DNA of 64,000 nucleotides from Thermococcus guaymasensis DSM 11113 (lineage in GTDB: Archaea > Methanobacteriota_B > Thermococci > Thermococcales > Thermococcaceae): assembly GCF_000816105.1 (NCBI RefSeq), contig NZ_CP007140.1, positions 434,001-498,000 on the forward strand, in the 5' to 3' direction. Of this stretch, positions 15,106 through 62,769 are shown piece after piece; position 1 is the stretch's first letter; every line of letters starts with the position of its first letter. The position numbers and the translations under genes were made by a program. Below the pieces are notes generated by a model. The model made no database searches. It was not told where the DNA came from and was given only the letters and a program-made list of their open reading frames with translations.

Positions 15106-15257
15106 GGCCATACCTCCTCAGAATTTTTTCAAAAGAGCGTGAGCGATACTCCAGAATAGGGGAGTCTTTCAGGAAATCAGGCGCTTTGCAACCAGCGGTG
15201 GAGAAGACACTCCCCCCTCATTGGCATCGGTGCGAGTAGGGTTTTTGATATTTAAAT
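15106..15257 (-). promoter_or_regulatory. leuS promoter and long structured leader
   Basis: On the minus strand a TATA box (ATTTAAATA, 15249-15257) predicts a transcript start near 15226, leaving an unusually long leader of about 120 bases. Within it GGGGAGTGTCTT (15204-15215) can pair with AAGACTCCCC (15159-15168). The ACTCC part of the latter can instead pair with GGAGT at 15148-15152. The two helices exclude each other and the second lies nearer the ribosome site. Confidence 0.4.
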
Positions 15258-15356
15258 CTTTTGGAATCCTAGCTGGGCGGAGCGGGCCTGCATCGGGGCA
15301 CGTTGAGGTAAAGTATAAAGAAGAAGCAGAAGAAATCCAAAAACAGAGGCCCAAGC

Positions 15357-15508
15357 CTAAAAGGTGGGCTCTTCCCAGGAGTTCAGCTTCAACCTCTTCT
15401 CCCGCGCGACTGTGCCGTAGAAGCGGGCGCTCTCCCTGGGGATTCTCCGGAAGTTCGCCCCTACTTCCACCAGCCCGAACTTCGGCTCGAACCCGCTGTT
15501 CTCTGGTT
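15357..15508 (-). pseudogene. C-terminal remnant of a GH1 beta-glycosidase
   Basis: About 49 codons ending in TAG at 15357 read FGLVEVGANFRRIPRESARF followed by YGTVAREKRL. This matches the universal C-terminal end of family 1 beta-glycosidases (pattern FGLVxVDxxxxxRxPKxSAxxYxxIxxxx). The rest of a roughly 450-residue enzyme is absent, so only the tail survives. It abuts the remnant of a debranching enzyme, indicating that one deletion event fused the leftovers of a sugar-degradation locus. Confidence 0.6.
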
Positions 15509-16032
15509 TCACCTTTCTTCCACCTCCAGAACCCTCAGCATCGCGAGCGCACCGGCGGCGCTCCACGCCTGCAGGCAGTTTGCGTACGGAACCGGCAAAA
15601 AGCTCGGGTATCTTTCCGCTCTTCTCCTCTATCTTCAGCCGCCGCACCCTGCCGTCGGCCCCCTTCCAGACTAGGGTGTTGCCCTCCCGGAGCGGGTGCC
15701 TCTCGACTCTCCCCCAGTCAGCTTCAAGGATGTCCTCAAAAGGCGTGGAGTAGCTGAACGCTACGTCCAGTTCAACCGGGGAATGGGTGGGGTTGAAGAC
15801 GAGCACCCTGTCATGGTAGCCGTTTCCGGTTGTTATTCTCCTGATGACGTAGCACTTTCCGGCCCGGTAAACTGCAGTTATGCCCTCCTCTCCCGACACT
15901 TCAAGGAGCTTTGTCCCCTCAATGGAAACCCCCAACGCCTCGCAGAAAAATTGTATCGTAGGCTATGTAGTCCGCTTTCCCCAAAATTTCGTTTAGAATC
16001 GCGATTTCGTGGCCGTAAGAAGCCGTGAGCAC
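15509..16032 (-). pseudogene. Amylo-alpha-1,6-glucosidase (glycogen debranching-like) gene, broken
   Basis: The pieces read in order from GTG 16032. Frame 1 gives LTASYGHEIAILNEILGKAD and YIAYDTIF. A T5 run near 15942 then shifts the frame into CEALGVSIEGTKLLEVSGEE and about 100 residues typical of the N-terminal domain of archaeal debranching enzymes. Near 15595 the frame changes again to FLPVPYANCLQAWSAAGALA and ends LEVEER with TGA at 15509, a typical debranching-enzyme C-terminus. The central catalytic domain (several hundred residues) is missing. So there are two frameshifts and a large internal deletion. A TATA-like TTTTATACT at about 16066 survives. Confidence 0.65.
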
Positions 16033-16213
16033 GCCGTTTCACTCTGAGTGCGTATTTTGGGGAGTATAAAAGGTTTTTCAATGACTCAGTTGTCAAGTGG
16101 ATGTTAAAACGTCACGTCCATCCTATTTGTCCGGTGAGAAATAGCGCGAAAAACGCTGAGCAGTCTCAAAACATTTTTCTTAATTCCTCCATAACAGCAG
16201 GGTGGTGATACCT

Positions 16214-17782
16214 GTGGCTAAAGCCTTCATAAACGGCAACGTTTACGTCTCGTTCAGGCCTCCCATCAAAGTTGAGGCATTTCTCGTCGTCAACGGTCGC
16301 GTTACTAAGACCGGATCCACCGGGGAAGTCCTCAAGGCAGCTAAGCCGCTGGGGGCGGAAGTTGTTGACCTTGGGGGAAAGACCGTCCTTCCGGGGTTCA
16401 TAGACGCCCATATGCACCTCGACGAGCTTGGGGAATACCTCGGCATGCTGGACCTCCGGGGAGTTAGGAGCATCGAAGAGCTGAAGGAGAAGCTTAGGAA
16501 GTTCGCCGAGGAGAAAGAGGGATGGATTCGTGGCCACGGCTGGGATCAGGAGCTATTCGAAGAAAAGCGCTGGCCCACGAGGCACGACCTTGACGAGGTC
16601 GTTAGCGACAGACCAGTGCTTCTCTCAAGGGTGTGCCTTCACGCCGCCGTCCTGAACACGAAAGCGCTGGAAGAGACCGGTCTTATTGATTGGGACTCGG
16701 AGGACGTATTGCGGGATGAAAACGGCGAGCCAACTGGAATAGTCAAAGAGGAGGCCTTCACACACGCCGTTCAGAAGTTCAATGAGATGATTTCCGAGGA
16801 AGAGTACGCAAAGAGCATCCTCAGGGCAGCTGAATACGTGCTCTCGAAAGGTGTGACTGGAGTCGGTTTTGTCAGCGTGGGTGAGAGAGCTTTAAGGGCC
16901 CTGAGCAGGCTCGACGCCGAGGGGAAGCTCAAGATTAGAGTGAAAGCGTACCTAAACCCCGGCGAGAACCTTGAAGTTCTCAACTCTCTCAAAAGGTTAG
17001 GTGTAAGGAACGGCTTCGGAGGAAAAAAGCTGAAAATCGGCGGGATAAAGGTTCTCGCCGACGGCTCCCTTGGCGCCAGGACCGCCTGGCTCTCAAGTCC
17101 ATACAGTGATGCAGAGACGAGGGGTCATCCAAACGTCACAAAGGAGTGGCTTGAACTCGTGGCGAGAGAGGCCCACGAGGCAGAGCTTCAAATGGCAGTT
17201 CATGCTATAGGTGACGCAACGCTTGACATGGTGCTCGATGTTTACGAGTCCCTGAAGGATGTTGAAAAGGCAGGACACCGGATAGAGCACGCCTCCCTCA
17301 TGAGACCAGACCAGATAGAGAGGGCCAAACGGCTTGGGGTTAGACTCGCAATCCAGCCGCACTTTGTAATAACTGATTGGTGGGTCGTTGAAAGGGTTGG
17401 AGCAGAGCGCGCAAAGTGGGCGTACCCCTTCAGGAGCATCGCGAAAGCTGGAATACCCTTTGGCCTGAGCACGGACTCGCCGGTGGAGCCCCTCGACCCC
17501 TGGGAAACTGTCTATGCTGCTGTAACCCGCGGAAAGTATGAAAACCTCCCTCTCGCGGTGCTGACTGGAGACGAGGCACTGACGCTTGAAGAGGCTCTCC
17601 ACGCGTACACAGCGGGATCTGCAGAGGTTCTTATGGAGAACGACCTGGGCAGCCTTGAGGAAGGCAAGCTGGCGGACTTCATCGTGGTGAGCGAAGACCC
17701 CTTTGAGGTTAATGAAAGGAAGCTAAGGGAAATAAGGGTACTGGAAACGTACCTGGGAGGGGAGAGAGTTTTCAAAGCCTGA
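16214..17782 (+). CDS. YtcJ-like metal-dependent amidohydrolase
   Basis: A 522-residue member of the amidohydrolase superfamily (amidohydrolase 3 / YtcJ branch). It has the N-terminal composite domain, metal ligands in GFIDAHMHLDELG, the catalytic Lys-region strand KIGGIKVLADGSLGARTAWL, later H in VHAIGDAT and RIEHASLM, and the final Asp in STDSPVEPLDPW. The substrate is unknown. GTG 16214 is preceded by GGTGGTGATACCT. It converges on pepQ with an 11-base overlap of 3' ends. Confidence 0.88.
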   Translation: MAKAFINGNVYVSFRPPIKVEAFLVVNGRVTKTGSTGEVLKAAKPLGAEVVDLGGKTVLPGFIDAHMHLDELGEYLGMLDLRGVRSIEELKEKLRKFAEEKEGWIRGHGWDQELFEEKRWPTRHDLDEVVSDRPVLLSRVCLHAAVLNTKALEETGLIDWDSEDVLRDENGEPTGIVKEEAFTHAVQKFNEMISEEEYAKSILRAAEYVLSKGVTGVGFVSVGERALRALSRLDAEGKLKIRVKAYLNPGENLEVLNSLKRLGVRNGFGGKKLKIGGIKVLADGSLGARTAWLSSPYSDAETRGHPNVTKEWLELVAREAHEAELQMAVHAIGDATLDMVLDVYESLKDVEKAGHRIEHASLMRPDQIERAKRLGVRLAIQPHFVITDWWVVERVGAERAKWAYPFRSIAKAGIPFGLSTDSPVEPLDPWETVYAAVTRGKYENLPLAVLTGDEALTLEEALHAYTAGSAEVLMENDLGSLEEGKLADFIVVSEDPFEVNERKLREIRVLETYLGGERVFKA

Positions 17783-53884: not shown

Positions 53885-54331
53885 TCAAATTTGGATACCC
53901 CTTGCCTGAGAGATTTTTTTGTCTAGTGCTGCTTTGATTTTTGCACTTGACTTTACCGGGGCAAAGACTATCGGGATTTGAAGCTCATTCCCCTCTTTAT
54001 CTCGGCCTTTTACTATTAACCCAATTTGTTCTGTTTTTTTCTTGCCTATTAAGAGAGCGCCTATCCCCAATGTAATAAAGCCAGCGAATAATCTTTTCCC
54101 GGACCATTCTCTTTCTATATCTGTGGTCACAGAGTCAATTTTCTCGTATGGAATTCTAAATAGCTCTCCTGAAGCCATGGTTAGACCTGTTCTCCAGCTA
54201 AAGGAAGTCCTCCTTTTGACTACTACTTCATTTTCATATAACTCTATATAGCACGGGACGTTCTCTTCCACTACTCCCGGATATCCAGTCACATACGTTC
54301 CTTCGAACTTGAATTCAGGTTTTTCACTCAT
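53885..54331 (-). CDS. Conserved protein with PH/GRAM-like domain
   Basis: 148 residues from ATG 54331 (AGGAGGTTTTGCT upstream, TATA TTATATAA at 54371-54378). A beta-rich N-terminal domain (CYIELYENEVVVKRRTSF, FRIPYEKIDSVTTDIEREW) resembles bacterial/archaeal PH-like folds, with a hydrophobic helix (LFAGFITLGIGALLIG) inserted. It has its own promoter and so is separate from the operon upstream. Function unknown. Confidence 0.55.
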   Translation of the reverse strand: MSEKPEFKFEGTYVTGYPGVVEENVPCYIELYENEVVVKRRTSFSWRTGLTMASGELFRIPYEKIDSVTTDIEREWSGKRLFAGFITLGIGALLIGKKKTEQIGLIVKGRDKEGNELQIPIVFAPVKSSAKIKAALDKKISQARGIQI

Positions 54332-54469: not shown

Positions 54470-54895
54470 TCATAAATAATTCTTTTTTACTAGCTCAATG
54501 ATACTTTCTAATTTTCCAATGTCTCCCATATTAGCATAGCCAAAGGTTACTAATCTGGTGTTGGCAATTCTGCTAGCTATAGACATGAGCTCTAGATATT
54601 CCCTTCTAGCTCCTCCTTTGTAGTACACAACAACATCGAATTTTTTCAATGTCTTTGAGACAATAGGTATTAATTCCTGGATCTTGCTAGGAGTTAGAAT
54701 TTCATCATACGGCTCTAGTACCCTCTCAGCAGGCACTAATCCATATCTAGCACTTAAAATGTAGAATGGATACCCTAATTCTCGAGATTTTTTATACAGG
54801 TGCCTAATCCGAGAGGATTTGTATAATCTCCATGCAGGTTGAGGAAACTTTTCTTTTTTCGCACCACATGCAGTTGCAATCGCTATCTTTTTCAT
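54470..54895 (-). CDS. DUF6884/YaaA-like small protein of the modification operon
   Basis: 141 residues from ATG 54895, which overlaps the dpdA-like stop as ATGA. IAIATACGAKKEKFPQPAWR, YILSARYGLVPAERVLEPYD (SARYGLV at 48-54, EPYD at 61-64) and VVVYYKGGARREYLELM match the pattern of DUF6884-type proteins, related to the YaaA/DUF328 fold, which recur near 7-deazaguanine and phage DNA-modification genes. A role in base chemistry or DNA binding is inferred. Last gene of the operon; A+T-rich. Confidence 0.6.
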   Translation of the reverse strand: MKKIAIATACGAKKEKFPQPAWRLYKSSRIRHLYKKSRELGYPFYILSARYGLVPAERVLEPYDEILTPSKIQELIPIVSKTLKKFDVVVYYKGGARREYLELMSIASRIANTRLVTFGYANMGDIGKLESIIELVKKNYL

Positions 54896-55944
54896 AGCCA
54901 TCTCTCCAAGGTGGAAGTTTTGTCAGTTATATATTTGAAAAGTTTTCTATACACTGGATTGTCTTTAACTAAATTCCACACATATTCCTGATAAGTTCCT
55001 TCTTCGATTTTTTGCCGAGCAATTTCAACTTCTTTTTGGTATACCCAGGCATTGTGTATTGCACGTAGTTTAAAACTTGATCTCAAACCTTCCACACCGT
55101 GGGAAGTACACGCTGGACACTCACATTTCCTTAATTCGGCCAAGTCTTCTTCAGAAAGGTCACGATACTTTGGCTGAGCTTTGCCGGTAATATACCTGTC
55201 TCCCTTGCCTGGAAGCTGAATAGCACCATATGCAGCTTTAAATCTCCATGAGGAACTATCTATTGAATTAACCCCCAGAAGAAACATTAAATGCATTGTG
55301 AGGGAACCCCCTATTCCAAACACATGAATTTTTCGATCAGGCACTAGCTCCTTAACTAGTTTAATAAGATCAATAGCCTTGTAAAATCTTCCGTTAACAC
55401 CTTTTATCCCTTTCACTAAAGGTACCAAACTCCCTAATCCGTAAATATCAAATTCGCCAATTCTTTCCAATTCTTTTATATACCACTCTAGAGACTTTCG
55501 AGAGTACCCGTGTATTACAGGAATAAAAACAGGATTATCAGATTTTTTGAGCTCTACCATAGTTTTTATATTGTTTAAACTCCAAATTTGTCGTTTCTTG
55601 ATGATGTTCTCAGGCAGGGACGGGAAAATGGGGTGATCAAGGGAAACGGCAAAGTTAGGTTTCCATTTTTCATATAGTTCGACTAATTGTTCTGGGGATA
55701 CGGGTACCTTATTATGTTTCATGAACAGAAATCCACCAGAATCTATTGTAACATACCCATCAAAGCCAAGATAATTATGAACTTTTTTCTCTCTGATCTT
55801 TTTGTCTATATATGGTTTGGTTAATATATCGTAGGCATTTAGCATGACTCCTTCTACTCTAAAGTAATCCCACGGTTTAGGATTGAGTTTTGATAGTTGA
55901 GTCAACCACATAAATGGAAATTTTAATGAAATTTTTTTACTCAT
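54892..55944 (-). CDS. dpdA: DpdA-like transglycosylase (TGT family, DNA-type)
   Basis: 350 residues with a TGT-like TIM barrel. DSGGF at 68-72 supplies the general-base Asp68, GVNSIDSSSWR (225-233) the nucleophile Asp229, and CECPAC (274-279) with His297 the structural zinc site. TGTs swap guanine for preQ1/preQ0 in tRNA. The IDSSSW context and short length without PUA domain fit the DpdA branch, which exchanges guanine in DNA for preQ0. The host must have a separate arcTGT for tRNA. ATG 55944 (GGTGATAAACC) overlaps the ArcS-like gene by eight bases. Alternative: a tRNA-acting paralogue. Confidence 0.75.
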   Translation of the reverse strand: MSKKISLKFPFMWLTQLSKLNPKPWDYFRVEGVMLNAYDILTKPYIDKKIREKKVHNYLGFDGYVTIDSGGFLFMKHNKVPVSPEQLVELYEKWKPNFAVSLDHPIFPSLPENIIKKRQIWSLNNIKTMVELKKSDNPVFIPVIHGYSRKSLEWYIKELERIGEFDIYGLGSLVPLVKGIKGVNGRFYKAIDLIKLVKELVPDRKIHVFGIGGSLTMHLMFLLGVNSIDSSSWRFKAAYGAIQLPGKGDRYITGKAQPKYRDLSEEDLAELRKCECPACTSHGVEGLRSSFKLRAIHNAWVYQKEVEIARQKIEEGTYQEYVWNLVKDNPVYRKLFKYITDKTSTLERWL

Positions 55945-56707
55945 GGTTTATCACCTGTTCTATTGTTTTTTTGAGATAATATCTAAGATACTCTTGAGCC
56001 TCCGGATGAGCAATGCCATACATATCCCAAGCGAATCTTCCATGTTTTTTCACTATCCTAGCTATAAGGCGTTTGGGAGGAAGTAACTTTACTTTAACTC
56101 CCGAAAGAGCCGATGCCTTCTCGATGATCCGCCTGTGGGTATGATCTTTCTTGAGTTTTAAGCTCGATGAATACGTTCGTACAAAAGCAATCTTAGCCTT
56201 ATAATGTGATTTTGTTTTCTCCAAGTATTTTGCAACATTTTTTGCAAGGATATTAATGCTCTGTTCTAGAAATTCTTCCTCGTAAGGTAGCTTGTGTTTT
56301 CTAACCCACCACTCAAATAATCCCGGGACGTCGTACCATTCATCTTTCCAATTATATCCGTCTCCTTTCATCCCATAAAATTCTTCAGGAATAACCCCAA
56401 ACGGTTCTGAAACTGTCACGAGGTGAATAAGATCTCTATGAGAAAGTTTACTCAAAGTATTAAACAAAGCTTTATATGCTCTAGACTCCCAAAATGGCTT
56501 TACCGTAGAGCAAGGATACAATAGCAGGATTTTTTTGGAATTTGGAGGAATGTATTGATTTTCAATTATCGAAAACCACGAATGTATTCTCTCATTACGC
56601 TCCAAAAGTTCATATACCTCACGTGGGGTATAAGCGCATAATTCTGGCAGTATTTTTACACCTTTTCCATGCTTACTTGATTCTACGTATAGTTCGTTTC
56701 GATTCAT
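55937..56707 (-). CDS. ArcS-like (archaeosine synthase, DUF5591) protein
   Basis: 256 residues. ILLLYPCSTVKPFWESRAYK contains PC-x3-KPF-x2-S-x2-Y (Cys66, Lys70, Ser75, Tyr78), the ArcS signature PC-x3-KPY-x2-S-x2-H with F for Y and Y for H. VTVSEPFGVIPEEFYGMKGD matches the following ArcS strand-loop. Lys70 corresponds to the residue that handles the nitrile of preQ0. The PUA domain and other parts of full ArcS are absent. I infer it converts preQ0 placed in DNA by the neighbouring DpdA-like enzyme to an archaeosine-like base. ATG 56707 has GGAGGGATATTT. Confidence 0.65.
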   Translation of the reverse strand: MNRNELYVESSKHGKGVKILPELCAYTPREVYELLERNERIHSWFSIIENQYIPPNSKKILLLYPCSTVKPFWESRAYKALFNTLSKLSHRDLIHLVTVSEPFGVIPEEFYGMKGDGYNWKDEWYDVPGLFEWWVRKHKLPYEEEFLEQSINILAKNVAKYLEKTKSHYKAKIAFVRTYSSSLKLKKDHTHRRIIEKASALSGVKVKLLPPKRLIARIVKKHGRFAWDMYGIAHPEAQEYLRYYLKKTIEQVINHE

Positions 56708-56723
56708 AAATATCCCTCCTGCT

Positions 56724-59700
56724 TCATTTTACAAGTGATATTGTACTTTTCAGCAGACCCTTCCGCTCTAAGGTAACTAATGCACGTATGATTTCTATTT
56801 CTGAGAACTTCCCCTGCAACGCATCCAAGAGATCCTTGAGACTAATATGCGGGTTATTCGCCAAAATCCTGAATACGGATACTTGCACATTGTTATCAAC
56901 CCCAGCCATGAACTGATATAATTTTTGTAGTTTATGTTTTAGAGTATCCAAATCATTTATTGATCTTTCAAGGTGCAGGAGGACATCTCGGTACGAGTTA
57001 TTAGCAGTTATACTTTCAGCAATTTTCTTTGATAAGCTAGCAACATCCTTGTATTCTAACACGATATCATCTGGAAGTTCTATTATTGAGTTCGCATGCA
57101 ATTCTTTCAGGAATGAGACAACAGAGTCTGCTTGACTCGTTGTTACTCTAATATGATCAGAAATACGTTCAATTTCCGTTTTAATACTGCTTTGGACATC
57201 AATTACTATTTTTTCGATTTGCGACAACAGATTTTCTAATTTCAAAATATATGCCTCTGAAAGAAAGATCTTGCTAAGAACGTCTCTAGCCTGTTCCAGG
57301 TTAGAATCAAGTTTTTTCAGAGTTTCTTCAAGCTCTGTGACCTTCTCACAATTGATAAGATATCCCCCGTCAGAGAAAGTTTTTGAGCATAAACCTTTCA
57401 ATAGTTGTAGATCCCTTATGAGTTTTTTCTGCTCATTACTGAAGTTCATTAGTTTAGTATTGTCTTCGTTATATGTTCGAATAAGGTTATCTAGCGAATT
57501 ATAAAGTTTCTTAAGACCCTCATAATGTCTCTTTAGTTGGTTTTCGATATATCCTTCCACCATTCTTGTTAGATCCGCTAGTGTTAGATATCCACTAGTT
57601 ACAGGATATTGTTTTTCTTTGAGCTCTGGTATCTTGACATTTGTTATGTTATACTTCCTAATCATTTCCTGTATCTTATCTTGAAGTCTATTGATTTGGT
57701 ATCTATATTCGTTCAAATCTTGTATCGCCTCGTCAATTCTTGAGAATTCTCGCCTAAGGTAATTCTCTTTGTACTTAGAAACTTCTTCTTCGATCTTTTT
57801 GAGGAGATATCGGACATAATTATGAACATCGCGTGAAAAGAACATTGGATGCTTATCTATGGAGCCTTTATTGGTTTTATGCTCGTGTTTTAATTCCTTT
57901 TTGAGAACTTCTTTAGACTTTGACATCAATTCTGAGATCTTTTCCTCGAATGCACTGAGAGTTCTGTATTCACTCAACATCTGGATTTCCAAGTCTGGAT
58001 AAATTTCTGTAATTGGTTCTATTTTTTGCTTTAGCTGGATTTTCATATCCGCCAAAGACTCTTCAACTTGCTGCTTTGTACGTTCTATTTCATTTAACTC
58101 AAATGTCATTTTACCGAAAAGCACTTCTATAACGTACTCTATATAATCGGATATTAACATCTTCTGAGCCTTCGACAAAGAATATCTTTTGTTGACATAG
58201 CTTTGAACTATAGAGTCAATGTTGTCAATATCAATGAATAACTCTTTGTGTTTTTTGAACATAGCTATATGCGCCAATGCAGGATTTTCTTGGACAATGT
58301 ATTTTGATAAAATCTCATTTTTCTTCTTTTCAAATTCTTCATAAATCATGTTTAATCTTTTGTTAATATCTACTTCACTGAGCAAACTAATAGTCTTGTT
58401 CTTAATATCTATCTCTCCTCTCCATTTTAAAATCATTAAGAATTTTTCTAAAATATCGTATGCAGACCTACTCATATCAATAAAATGCTTTCTTAGTTCT
58501 TGTATGGACACACTGTCGTGTCCATTATCTTTGTATTCTTTCAGTATTTCTAGAATTTTCTTTTCAACAGGAGTCATTTGGATTATTATTTTTCCGTCGG
58601 CGGTCTCAGAGATAAGGCCATTTTCCTTAAAGGATACAAGAACTCTCCTAACTAGCTTTTTGAACTGTTCAAAAGTTTCTACATCATATTTCAAGACAAC
58701 GGGTTTTTTAACACCTCTCCCATACAAGAGGGTAGTGGATATTTTCGTTAGATTGTTTTCCCATAGCTCCTCCAAAGTAAACTCAGAGCCTCCAAGAAGA
58801 AGCATGAAATAAATATCCAGCAGTTCAGATATCCCTTTTTCAGTCACTCTTTTGAAATCTTCTAGCACATAGCCATCCGCCCTTAGGTTAGATATCAAGT
58901 TTTGGATTTTTTCGTCAATGTTCAGTGATCCAATAATCTCATTAAGCTTGCGTTTTAATCTTTCAATGTCCACCTTTAGCTCTATTTCATTGCGTTTTTG
59001 TTTTTGAATGAGCTTTTCAATTATAGCCAACTGCACCAATGTGACTTCTGGTAAGGGTATAATAACTGTTTTACTGCTCAAGTTCAAGTCTTCTATTTTC
59101 TTTTTTAAAAGGTCATATATCGAGTCTTTCGCTATTATTACAGGGATTCTGCCTTCTTCTCTTATTGTTTGTCTTATGATCTCCATTCTATTTTCTGGAT
59201 TGTACATGAAAACAAATAAGTCAACTTTCAACGGTATCTTTTTACCCCCATAATCATACTGATATACCAGCCTCGCATTTTCAATTTTGAGGCTTGGAAT
59301 GTTGTTGATTAAAAGAAGCATAACGTTTCTTTCGATAGTCTCAGGGTTATGCACGACTTCATCATATGCAGATTTCCACAGTTGGAGCGCTCTACTTGGA
59401 TCCACGAAATCAAGGACAAAAATCGGAGGTGCTGGATATATCCTCTCTTGTACCTCTGGGGATAGCCAGTAACCAATTAATGGTTGCTTATCATTCTGGG
59501 TTTCACGCTCTAATATGTCATATATTGCCTTAACTTTATCAGGAGATATAATAACAATATTGGAAAATGATAGAATCTTCGATATTATTTCGCTGATCCA
59601 GCGTCTGTTTGTGTAGTCGTATGGGGGTAAAGGTAAATATCTCATTCCCCCTATGTTAACTAGAACTCTCCGAATAGCTAGCATTATTTCTTCTTTATCT

Positions 59701-61061
59701 AGGCCAGGGTTCATCAAACTCAATATATCCACTATCTCATCTTCTATTTTGGATCCAGTGGGATAGGGATACAGTTCCACTTTAATAATAGGCTCTTTGC
59801 CAAATTTGTTTAATAATACCTTATTTAAAAGCACTATATCTTGCTCATTAAGTTCATAATCAAAAAATATGCTAGAACTTGCAACGAATTTTTTCCAAAG
59901 AGTTACATATCTCTCTGACCCTAGTTCTTGGTTGATATAACCTATTGTTTCCATGTATAAGATTCTATCAATTCCTTCACTTTCTCCAACATAGGTGTAT
60001 ATCTTGTTTTGAGTTAGGGTTTCGATAATCAAATCTGCACTAATTTTTATTATCCCATCCGAGTTCCCGTATTTTTGTCTATATTTTTGTCTAGCCATTG
60101 CAATAAGCTTGTTAAAGGAATCAACTAAAGCACCAATATTTCCTTGAGATACAGTAAATAGGATGTCAATATATCTCTCGTCTTCGAAGACATCTTCAAT
60201 GTTTGTGTCCTCGGAAAAGTATACTTTCTTGATTAATGTCGAAATTATTGTCTCAACATCTCTTCGTGTCAAAGGTCTAAGTTCAATAATATATCTACGC
60301 CGCTGTTCCCATCCTTTAAACTCCATTCCAAGTTTACTAACATATTCAGAATACGCATAGGGAGTCATAGAGAGTACGAAATGAGGAATTACTCCCCCCT
60401 TCTCTATGAGTTCGTTAAATCCACCACCACGAGCACCACGTATTGCTTCAACGACCAGATCAACTATTTCCCTATTGTGAACTTTTTTGCCTTTCCATTG
60501 GAAGATTGCCTCGAACTCATCTATGAAAAATATCACGTGAGTACGGTTCTTAGATAATATTCTCAATACATCCTCTAGATTAGTAGAGACCTCCCTAATG
60601 TCACTTAGCTTGGGAAACATGGATAATTGTCCTTTTATTTTTATTTTCTCTCTCACGGCTTCTAAAATTGCTGCTAAGAATTTTTTAGCTGGATACCAAG
60701 GTCCATGCTCATTTAATTTTCTTTCAAAAATTGGCAATACATCGTCCATTCTAACTGTATAAGAAATGATATTTTGAGAATATTTATCATCTTTGTTCAG
60801 TTTCTCTGAATAGACACTTATTAAAGTTGTTTTTCCCTCTCCCCATTCCCCCTTGACAATAAGTATTTGAGGAGTCTTAGTGCTCATGCAGAGCTCTAAA
60901 AATAGCTCAAATTGTTCTTCTATGTTTGTTCTACTTTCCAATACAAGAGTTGATATTGCTCGCTGGACTTTTTCATAAATCTCTCTTGGAAGGTTCTCAA
61001 AAGCTACATCAACAAATTGAAAATCCTTAGATAATTTGACAATATTATGTCTCTCATGCAT
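56724..61061 (-). CDS. Giant P-loop ATPase with coiled coils and winged helix
   Basis: 1445 residues. Walker A GEWGEGKTT is at 71-79 and Walker B VIFFIDEFE at 176-184, then a sensor-like region (SMTPYAYSEY), the layout of large AAA/STAND-like ATPases such as those in BREX (BrxC) or Dpd islands. Residues of about 480-800 hold a mixed domain, about 800-950 winged-helix segments (TPVEKKILEILKEYKDNG), and 950-1380 long coiled coils, ending in another winged helix (VSVFRILANNPHISLKDLLD). No nuclease motif is seen. ATG 61061 overlaps the herA stop by eight bases. Probably the sensor or motor of the system. Confidence 0.8.
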   Translation of the reverse strand: MHERHNIVKLSKDFQFVDVAFENLPREIYEKVQRAISTLVLESRTNIEEQFELFLELCMSTKTPQILIVKGEWGEGKTTLISVYSEKLNKDDKYSQNIISYTVRMDDVLPIFERKLNEHGPWYPAKKFLAAILEAVREKIKIKGQLSMFPKLSDIREVSTNLEDVLRILSKNRTHVIFFIDEFEAIFQWKGKKVHNREIVDLVVEAIRGARGGGFNELIEKGGVIPHFVLSMTPYAYSEYVSKLGMEFKGWEQRRRYIIELRPLTRRDVETIISTLIKKVYFSEDTNIEDVFEDERYIDILFTVSQGNIGALVDSFNKLIAMARQKYRQKYGNSDGIIKISADLIIETLTQNKIYTYVGESEGIDRILYMETIGYINQELGSERYVTLWKKFVASSSIFFDYELNEQDIVLLNKVLLNKFGKEPIIKVELYPYPTGSKIEDEIVDILSLMNPGLDKEEIMLAIRRVLVNIGGMRYLPLPPYDYTNRRWISEIISKILSFSNIVIISPDKVKAIYDILERETQNDKQPLIGYWLSPEVQERIYPAPPIFVLDFVDPSRALQLWKSAYDEVVHNPETIERNVMLLLINNIPSLKIENARLVYQYDYGGKKIPLKVDLFVFMYNPENRMEIIRQTIREEGRIPVIIAKDSIYDLLKKKIEDLNLSSKTVIIPLPEVTLVQLAIIEKLIQKQKRNEIELKVDIERLKRKLNEIIGSLNIDEKIQNLISNLRADGYVLEDFKRVTEKGISELLDIYFMLLLGGSEFTLEELWENNLTKISTTLLYGRGVKKPVVLKYDVETFEQFKKLVRRVLVSFKENGLISETADGKIIIQMTPVEKKILEILKEYKDNGHDSVSIQELRKHFIDMSRSAYDILEKFLMILKWRGEIDIKNKTISLLSEVDINKRLNMIYEEFEKKKNEILSKYIVQENPALAHIAMFKKHKELFIDIDNIDSIVQSYVNKRYSLSKAQKMLISDYIEYVIEVLFGKMTFELNEIERTKQQVEESLADMKIQLKQKIEPITEIYPDLEIQMLSEYRTLSAFEEKISELMSKSKEVLKKELKHEHKTNKGSIDKHPMFFSRDVHNYVRYLLKKIEEEVSKYKENYLRREFSRIDEAIQDLNEYRYQINRLQDKIQEMIRKYNITNVKIPELKEKQYPVTSGYLTLADLTRMVEGYIENQLKRHYEGLKKLYNSLDNLIRTYNEDNTKLMNFSNEQKKLIRDLQLLKGLCSKTFSDGGYLINCEKVTELEETLKKLDSNLEQARDVLSKIFLSEAYILKLENLLSQIEKIVIDVQSSIKTEIERISDHIRVTTSQADSVVSFLKELHANSIIELPDDIVLEYKDVASLSKKIAESITANNSYRDVLLHLERSINDLDTLKHKLQKLYQFMAGVDNNVQVSVFRILANNPHISLKDLLDALQGKFSEIEIIRALVTLERKGLLKSTISLVK

Positions 61062-62769
61062 TTTCATCACCCTCTTCAAATATCCTTACACGTCCTATTG
61101 AGTGCTCAACCCGTCTTGCAGGTATTTTCACTAAAAGAGGGAACCCAAATCTATTCATTTGGCCTGCTAACACTGCAAGTCCTCTTTCTAGGAGAGTCAA
61201 CTTTTTCGAGATAAACGGGGGAAGTCCGCCAGTTACAGTTTCGACGAATTTAACATCTTCCGGAGAGACTCTATGAATGATAAATGTGTTGACCATTGAC
61301 ATTACAATCGGATCAACAAAGCTCGGCCTCTGTGTCACCAAGCATAATGATAAACCGAATTTTCGTCCCTGGGTCGCAATCGTGGCTAGAATATCCTTGG
61401 CGACACTAAAGCCAACAGGATACTTTGATTTATTTGGAGCATAGTTTTGAGCTTCCTCTATTACAAACAACAAAAGGCGCTCTTTTTGGTCTATTCTCGT
61501 TTTATACTCAACAAATTTGTTGTACAACAGCTTGAGAATGTAGTAAACAACAAATTGTTTAACTTCAGGATAAATACCTGTTGCTCCATCAGAGGAAAAG
61601 TCTATAATGACCATTCCAGGAGATCTAGGTTTAGTCATCTCATCTATTAGGTCTACATTGAGAGTTGCTCCAGAGTAATCATAAGGTATAATGCAAGAAG
61701 ACTTCACTATGTCTTCGTGGAATACGGAAAGTGCTCGTTTAACTGCACCAATAGTTGCACTATGATACACTTTTTTTAATTCACTATCTTCATCCAAGTA
61801 TTTTGAAACTAAATTGTCTGAAAATACAGAATTAAAATCGATACCTGCCTGTGATCCAGCATACTCGGCACCTTTTTCTTTTGCATATTCATGGAATTCT
61901 CTACTAGCAAGAACATTATGAAGCAACGAAACTTGTTGCTCTGCTCCTTCTAAGTTTCCTCTCTTGTAATACGCGATAACTAGTTCAGAAAGTTCACGTT
62001 CATTGAATACATTTAAATCAATAGTTAATATGTCAATATTTTCTTCATGTCTTATGACTGCAGAAGACTTTGGGAATACAAATCGTTTAATCATGGAGTA
62101 AGATTTTACTTCTTTTCTGTTCTCGGGCAAAGTATAATCGATATAATCTCCATTGGCATCAATAATAATAACTGGAACAGCCGGGTATACTGAGGAATTT
62201 AGTCTAGATAATTGTTCCAGCAAGTATCCAGTAGTGTTAGATTTTCCACTTCCAGTTATACCTAAGATAGCCATATGCATTGTGATATTGTTAATATTTA
62301 AAACAGCAGGAAGGTCTTCATATCCATAGATAGTTCCAAAGGGAGTAGCAGTTGGCTTGAAGTTAAATTCTCTCAAGAGTTCTTCTGAACCTTGTCCATA
62401 TATTTTTTCAATATCTTGTTGCGAAAGTGGATAAATAGGATCTCCCGGAAATGGAGGTTGGCTAATAGAAAAGATACTTCCTCCCTTAAGTTCACCCAAA
62501 AGTTCTATATGGACTGTCGTGTATCTCCTGGCAACATTTAAGGGTATATCCTCCCCTTTTTGTCTGGCTTCGCTCCAGATATCGCCTTCCTCAAAAAACT
62601 CATGATAGTGAACTATAGAAACGACACGTCCCAATAACTCTCTTCTGTCCTTAGTCTTTATTATCACAAACATTCCTTCCCTGACTCTTGAGCCAGAATC
62701 CTCCAGTGGCTGTGCTTTAACAAGGGTAGTTGTACTTCCCGATAATACAATTCCAATTCTTTCAGACAT
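61054..62769 (-). CDS. herA: HerA-type hexameric DNA-translocating ATPase
   Basis: 571 residues. An N-terminal HAS-barrel (IGIVLSGSTTTLVKAQPLED) is followed by the FtsK/HerA ATPase core with Walker A GITGSGKS at 170-177, PVIIIDANGDYIDY, Walker B LLLFVIEEAQNYAP, the ATQGRKFGLSLCLVTQRPS sensor segment and an arginine-finger region. HerA pumps DNA and acts with NurA in end resection; the chromosomal pair is normally next to Mre11-Rad50. Here an A+T-rich second copy is in the modification operon, two bases after the NurA-like gene, pointing to a defence or element role. Confidence 0.9.
   Translation of the reverse strand: MSERIGIVLSGSTTTLVKAQPLEDSGSRVREGMFVIIKTKDRRELLGRVVSIVHYHEFFEEGDIWSEARQKGEDIPLNVARRYTTVHIELLGELKGGSIFSISQPPFPGDPIYPLSQQDIEKIYGQGSEELLREFNFKPTATPFGTIYGYEDLPAVLNINNITMHMAILGITGSGKSNTTGYLLEQLSRLNSSVYPAVPVIIIDANGDYIDYTLPENRKEVKSYSMIKRFVFPKSSAVIRHEENIDILTIDLNVFNERELSELVIAYYKRGNLEGAEQQVSLLHNVLASREFHEYAKEKGAEYAGSQAGIDFNSVFSDNLVSKYLDEDSELKKVYHSATIGAVKRALSVFHEDIVKSSCIIPYDYSGATLNVDLIDEMTKPRSPGMVIIDFSSDGATGIYPEVKQFVVYYILKLLYNKFVEYKTRIDQKERLLLFVIEEAQNYAPNKSKYPVGFSVAKDILATIATQGRKFGLSLCLVTQRPSFVDPIVMSMVNTFIIHRVSPEDVKFVETVTGGLPPFISKKLTLLERGLAVLAGQMNRFGFPLLVKIPARRVEHSIGRVRIFEEGDENA

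Follow-up and report, generated by a model that had tools for sequence, protein, structure and literature searches.

Two overlapping genes in a heat-loving archaeon, one encoding a TGT-like protein and the other an ArcS-core protein, raise the question of which molecule their products modify. The genes lie in the window, the whole stretch of 64,000 nucleotides that was analysed. It belongs to a 1.92 Mb archaeal chromosome that is Thermococcales-like by its arcTGT sequence and its kin. A first-pass annotation described an eight-base overlap between the genes and proposed that the pair makes archaeosine in DNA. Both reading frames and the overlap are confirmed, and the overlap is conserved in relatives: 8 bp in the window, 11 bp in G096, G068 and the korarchaeon Candidatus Methanodesulfokora washburnensis (NZ_RCOS01000174.1), and 14 bp in G217. 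Chance or artefact as the source of the overlap is ruled out, since overlap and gene order are both conserved.

The pair is part of a cassette of six tightly packed minus-strand genes running from 64030 to 54470, the first 30 bases of which lie past the window end (Table 1). Beyond what the first-pass annotation described, genes for a NurA-like nuclease, a HerA-like translocase and an ATPase lie upstream, and a DUF6884 gene lies downstream, sharing 10 bp with the TGT gene. The GC content of the cassette is 36%, against about 50-53% in its flanks. A gene for a 148-aa protein (window 53885-54331) adjoins the cassette; the other Thermococcales-like cassettes were not seen to have it as a neighbour.

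Table 1. Genes of the cassette, with positions in the window and the profile matches of their products
Product	Position	Strand	Match or remark
NurA-like nuclease, 419 aa	62771..64000	-	PF09376 NurA 1e-10; 5' end 30 bases outside window
HerA-like DNA translocase, 571 aa	61054..62769	-	PF01935 1.8e-23; PADLOC HerA 4.9e-40
AAA/STAND-like ATPase, 1451 aa, probable sensor/coordinator	56724..61079	-	AAA_22 3.7e-4; AAA_16 8e-4
ArcS-core (DUF5591) protein, 256 aa, putative nitrile-modifying enzyme	55937..56707	-	DUF5591 4.6e-11
DpdA-like TGT, 350 aa, putative DNA-guanine transglycosylase	54892..55944	-	Pfam TGT 3e-24
DUF6884 (DpdC-type domain) protein, 143 aa	54470..54901	-	PF21818 5.1e-12

Comparisons of residues and trees support the view that the cassette TGT is DpdA-like and lies outside arcTGT. 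As described earlier, the window protein keeps Asp68, Asp229 and the CxCxxC/His zinc site. The two aspartates align with those of arcTGT, and none of the seven cassette TGTs departs from them; the first cysteine of the zinc site is tyrosine in G096. All seven proteins also carry a histidine (in the window TGT, His145 in VIHGY) where tRNA TGTs carry glutamine (VQGS). The DpdA proteins of Enterobacter and phage 9g have histidine here, as does STSV2. Glutamine stands at this position of the joint alignment in E. coli Tgt, arcTGT and one cyanobacterial DpdA. The block after the nucleophile, DSSSWRxKAAxGAIQLP, is common to the cassette TGTs and phage 9g DpdA (DSSSWIQSAAFGAIETP), but not to arcTGT (DSASYALYAKDD).

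In the tree, arcTGT and E. coli Tgt are split from the cassette TGTs with support of 97.8/99. The monophyly of the seven cassette TGTs is without strong support, and the deep branching of DpdA-type proteins is unresolved. The AU test rejected a position of the cassette TGTs within arcTGT (p=0.012); it gave 0.037 for a grouping with all tRNA TGTs and did not reject a grouping with DpdA (0.55). An arcTGT paralogue is thereby ruled out. The first-pass annotation had named a place inside arcTGT as the outcome that would speak against it; the protein falls outside. Its description of a DpdA-like TGT coupled to an ArcS-core protein is borne out by the tree, the AU test, the signature residues and the conserved overlap. 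The PADLOC DpdA model matches at 1.9e-19, and the PDB matches include archaeosine TGT (1iq8, 1e-27) and DNA-guanine transglycosylase (7ui4, 8e-9). AlphaFold modelled the TGT poorly (pLDDT 60.7), and that model was left aside.

DpdA-like TGTs also occur in other settings. An orphan with the signature VHGH (L082:1149-2162) is found without a cassette in a genome of the same class. In a plasmid of Aulosira laxa (L100:3820-11038), such a gene lies downstream of SbcD-like, SbcC-like and weakly HerA-like genes, a possible bacterial analogue of the arrangement.

The partner protein corresponds to the core of ArcS only. DUF5591 scores 43.2 bits against a cut-off of 26, and the full-length ArcS equivalog model scores 47 against 600 bits. 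The motif reported by the first-pass annotation is present as P65-C66-x3-K70-P71-F-x2-S75-x2-Y78, but it is not the canonical one, in which the last residue is histidine. Cys66, Lys70, Pro71 and Ser75 are invariant. The motif reads PC-x3-KPF/KPY-x2-S-x2-Y, against PC-x3-KPY-x2-S-x2-H in the ArcS reference. Tyr78 replaces histidine in all four of the closest members, whereas the proteins of G217, STSV2 and the haloarchaeal fusions retain it, as does the canonical ArcS encoded elsewhere in the genome of the window (PCSARKPYSFSRSH). The alignment contains gaps, and it was used for the presence of the motif alone, not for some lengths and positions.

The ArcS-core protein gave a good AlphaFold model (pLDDT 90.7). 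A PDB fold search with this model returned nothing significant (best E 0.11). The viral protein closest to it in fold is encoded by Vibrio phage nt-1 and belongs to DUF5591 (E 3e-5, probability 1.00, TM 0.49/0.54). No relatives were found in tblastn searches of phages with the ArcS-like protein and canonical ArcS, or in scans of viral contigs with three alignments. Stand-alone ArcS-core-like proteins with a YD(V/A)P insertion occur at L076:5970-6827 and L077:9976-10668, without an adjoining TGT. In a Rhizobium plasmid (L102:9932-10948), a hypothetical protein weakly like ArcS-core is encoded two genes before 8-oxoguanine deaminase.

The three upstream genes encode what would be the effector part of the cassette. 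The NurA-like protein conserves the acidic motifs DGS and DGP-x2-DP, the HerA-like protein has the Walker A sequence GITGSGKS, and the ATPase family conserves Walker A (GEWGEGKT) and DEFE. In T. kodakarensis, ATP hydrolysis by HerA feeds double-stranded DNA into NurA, and both strands are cut (PMC12977600). The cassette proteins belong to the same families as this housekeeping pair, which acts in DNA end resection, and share their conserved motifs. They differ from it in that the cassette NurA is a divergent second copy, a separate and better-scoring NurA being encoded at C1:284315 (3.7e-30). The HerA-like protein scores far under the curated housekeeping HerA cut-offs (102 against 800 bits), and both genes are linked to the 1451-aa ATPase and to modification genes.

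The cassette is rare. Close homologues of the ArcS-core protein, and likewise of the TGT, occur in 3 of 115 genomes of the phylum (G000, G096 and G068). The six-gene set is complete in each of them, with unrelated flanks and a differing order of ATPase, NurA and HerA genes; in G068 the cassette has a GC content of 36.9% against 55-56% in its flanks. Differing flanks, low GC and sporadic occurrence fit what a mobile defence island would show. Among these three Thermococcales-like copies, identity is 54-71% for the modification genes and only about 20-45% for the effector genes, which is the pattern of two modules. The DUF6884 orthologues in the two other copies are 57 and 54% identical.

More distant cassettes differ in their modification genes. 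A TGT profile search of 396 archaeal genomes found three of them. Those of G116 and G178 consist of TGT, NurA, HerA, ATPase and DUF6884, without ArcS-core; that of G217 consists of NurA, HerA, ATPase, a 178-aa ArcS-core protein and TGT. The G217 NurA is called from a late start (L099:12559-13248) and is without the N-terminal acidic motif, possibly because of a frameshift or a start error. The korarchaeon has NurA, HerA, ATPase, ArcS-core (54%) and TGT (50-55%); a Cas4-like nuclease gene follows the TGT in the place of DUF6884. Thus TGT, NurA, HerA and ATPase are linked in seven archaeal genomes, with ArcS-core in five of the seven and DUF6884 without ArcS-core in two. A profile search for the ATPase family had hits in 7 of the 396 genomes. 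Six are full-length, all within such a cassette, and the seventh (G219) is distant and stands alone without one. Because the TGT profile leads to cassettes and the ATPase profile leads to the same cassettes, the linkage is tight both ways.

The pair of modification genes can also be found in archaeal viruses. In STSV2 (L108:2875-4285), the TGT-like gene 15 shares 23 bp with gene 16. Gene 16 is annotated as hypothetical; its product matches DUF5591 (8.1e-20), carries the exact motif PC-x3-KPY-x2-S-x2-H (PCTSVKPYNRSATH) and is 36.6% identical to the G217 ArcS-core (4e-23). With that small protein as query, STSV1 and STSV2 were matched, and STSV4 matches too. STSV1 has TGT and ArcS-core genes as neighbours, like STSV2, and its DNA was reportedly found by Xiang and co-workers in 2005 to be unusually modified. 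Haloarchaeal plasmids carry genes in which TGT and ArcS core are fused (L101:12456-14477 and 15191-17155; L103:8495-10498). Those of L101 lie near a cluster of TGT, DUF6884, PLD-like and DEAD/DEAH helicase genes, a further Dpd-like arrangement.

Vibrio phage nt-1, with DpdA2 and ArcS, resembles the cassette in having a DNA transglycosylase together with an ArcS-core protein that stands alone (PMC6884629). It differs in being a phage with its own preQ0 genes, and its DpdA2 is reportedly without the conserved histidine of the cassette TGT. Per million nucleotides, nt-1 DNA contains 232 dPreQ0, 72 dADG and 44 dG+ (PMC6884629). ArcS-core proteins therefore do occur with 7-deazaguanines in DNA, although the resulting base is not fixed.

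DNA is thus the likeliest substrate of the cassette TGT, a well-supported conclusion drawn from family signatures and genomic context. It rests on the DpdA-type histidine, the AU rejection, the fold match and precedent of nt-1, the STSV1/2 pair, the restriction-like neighbours and the recurrence of the cassette. The cassette as a whole is probably a Dpd-like mobile modification-restriction system, in which a deazaguanine in host DNA would be the self mark and HerA-NurA would destroy DNA that is unmarked. The TGT-like protein would replace guanine in the DNA of the host by preQ0, or by a derivative of it, supplied by the host's own preQ0 pathway. The ArcS-core protein, with DUF6884 where present, would then act on the nitrile via its conserved cysteine and mature the mark, giving dADG, dPreQ0-Lys or dG+. 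The large AAA ATPase would sense or license, directing HerA-NurA to unmarked DNA; the HerA-like ring would pump DNA into the NurA-like nuclease, and DNA without the mark would be destroyed. The sequences establish gene content, conservation, linkage, horizontal character and family signatures, whereas the identity of the base, the order of the steps and unmarked DNA as the target are inferred. Alternatively, NurA, HerA and the ATPase could serve to capture invaders without reading the base.

The genome of the window encodes homologues of QueC (1.3e-61) and RaSEA (1.7e-124), so both preQ0 and a lysine-cleaving step are available. No clear QueC was found in the korarchaeon genome (6e-6), so either preQ0 has another source there or that genome is incomplete. 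This result speaks against the self-mark reading, as do the loss of the first zinc ligand in G096, the tyrosine in the ArcS motif and the lack of matches to DpdB and DpdD-K.

Several products are compatible with a mark in DNA. One is the amide dADG, as in Dpd, made by DUF6884, by the ArcS-core protein acting as a hydrolase, or by both, which may be put forward tentatively. DUF6884 is the dpdC domain in the GATOR-GC listing (PMC11888242). With PADLOC, the DUF6884 protein matches DpdC weakly (7.7e-4) and PDC-M57A at 2.9e-11; a hypothetical gene before dpdA in an Enterobacter dpd island matches DUF6884 at 6.2e-5, which falls short of the curated cut-off. Two cassettes with DUF6884 but no ArcS-core, those of G116 and G178, fit this product. 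When profiles are aligned with hhalign, a broader ArcS set matches DUF6884 with 83-92% probability over the same Cys...Lys region, but the profile of the four closest ArcS-like sequences gives no significant match. ArcS-core and DUF6884 may thus be distant relatives sharing an active cysteine region, which is suggestive only. Against dADG, DUF6884 has no match anywhere in the Methanodesulfokora genome, so ArcS-core alone must suffice there, and the presence of both proteins in one cassette suggests more than simple hydrolysis.

The first-pass annotation had set an ArcS-type route to dG+ against the different enzyme of bacterial Dpd systems. This contrast fails, because the next overlapping gene encodes DUF6884, the DpdC domain. 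A broader reading is that DpdA and ArcS-core place archaeosine or lysine-linked preQ0 in archaeal chromosomal DNA as the self mark of HerA-NurA, and that the same pair marks the genomes of Sulfolobus viruses. It is possible, but on balance doubtful. What stands of the earlier proposal is the DpdA-like TGT, its coupling to an ArcS-core protein and DNA as likeliest substrate; the Dpd contrast, the canonical motif and the argument from PUA domains do not.

Still a little less likely is the narrower route in which ArcS-core adds lysine to dPreQ0 and the radical-SAM enzyme RaSEA of the host cleaves it to leave dG+ in DNA. The invariant Cys, Lys and Ser of ArcS-core, the canonical RaSEA homologue elsewhere in the genome and the presence of some dG+ in nt-1, with its similar stand-alone ArcS, are consistent with it. 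The change from His to Tyr in the motif of the close members, the lack of a radical-SAM gene within the cassette and the co-encoded DUF6884 of the Thermococcales-like copies argue against it, as does the excess of dPreQ0 and dADG over dG+ in nt-1.

It is improbable that the pair is a second tRNA system, modifying some tRNA position, with its neighbours as accidental passengers. The TIGR00432 arcTGT model does outscore NCBIfam DpdA on the cassette TGT (7.6e-34 against 2.1e-18), but neither reaches its cut-off (117 against 350 bits and 66 against an equivalog cut-off of 200 bits, respectively). Neither protein of the pair matches a PUA model in a Pfam search, as the first-pass annotation stated in arguing for a non-tRNA substrate. 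That argument is weak, because the PUA domain of arcTGT is reportedly not required, going by a title of Sabina & Soll cited in PMC11298593, and because T. kodakarensis ArcS acts on the free preQ0 nucleoside (PMC11298593). Canonical arcTGT and ArcS are already encoded elsewhere in the genome, and the AU test, the DpdA-type residues, the linkage to NurA, HerA and ATPase across distant archaea and the pair in STSV viruses all speak against a tRNA role. Attachment of the base to a protein or signalling molecule that activates HerA-NurA, as in the QueC-family deazaguanylation of type IV CBASS, is very improbable: anti-phage systems do use deazaguanine chemistry on proteins (PMC13279940), but with QueC-type enzymes instead of TGT base exchange, and the cassette TGT retains both catalytic aspartates and the DpdA signature.

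The Dpd-like modification-restriction system proposed here can be compared with three known systems. Like bacterial Dpd islands (dpdA-dpdK, with dPreQ0/dADG in DNA), the cassette has a DpdA-type TGT, a DUF6884/DpdC-type protein and a restriction-like module in an island. Unlike them, it adds ArcS-core in five of seven loci, and its effector is NurA-HerA-ATPase instead of DpdD-K. The six cassette proteins gave no match to DpdB (DGQHR/DndB-like; PADLOC, Pfam and NCBIfam) or, in the PADLOC scan, to the dpdD-K restriction proteins. BREX-related capture (BRC; NAR 2026 gkag035, PMC12839542) shares a HerA/FtsK translocase, an AAA ATPase and a sporadic spread in archaea and bacteria, and a subset has a TGT. 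Its parts are PglZ, DUF6079, DUF4007, STAND and GNAT, none of which has a Pfam match in the window cassette proteins; the cassette instead has NurA, ArcS-core and DUF6884. The BRC paper is silent on ArcS and reports no DpdC (PMC12839542). The tRNA pathway of arcTGT, ArcS and RaSEA shares the TGT family, the ArcS core and preQ0 chemistry, but the cassette lacks both PUA and the TGT-like N-terminal domain of ArcS, has other signature residues and forms a separate clade. Judged by its gene content, the cassette would work like Dpd and share parts with BRC while failing the defining features of both. No description of it was found in a literature search that was not exhaustive, and it has the look of a so far undescribed defence system by which a heat-loving archaeon tells foreign DNA from its own.

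If this is true, 7-deazaguanine marking of DNA would extend from bacterial Dpd islands and phages to cellular archaeal defence, with HerA-NurA as the destroyer, and ArcS chemistry would gain a role on DNA in cells. STSV1 and STSV2 would stand out as archaeal viruses possibly bearing the same base. Genetically tractable relatives of the host exist, so the question can be tested directly.
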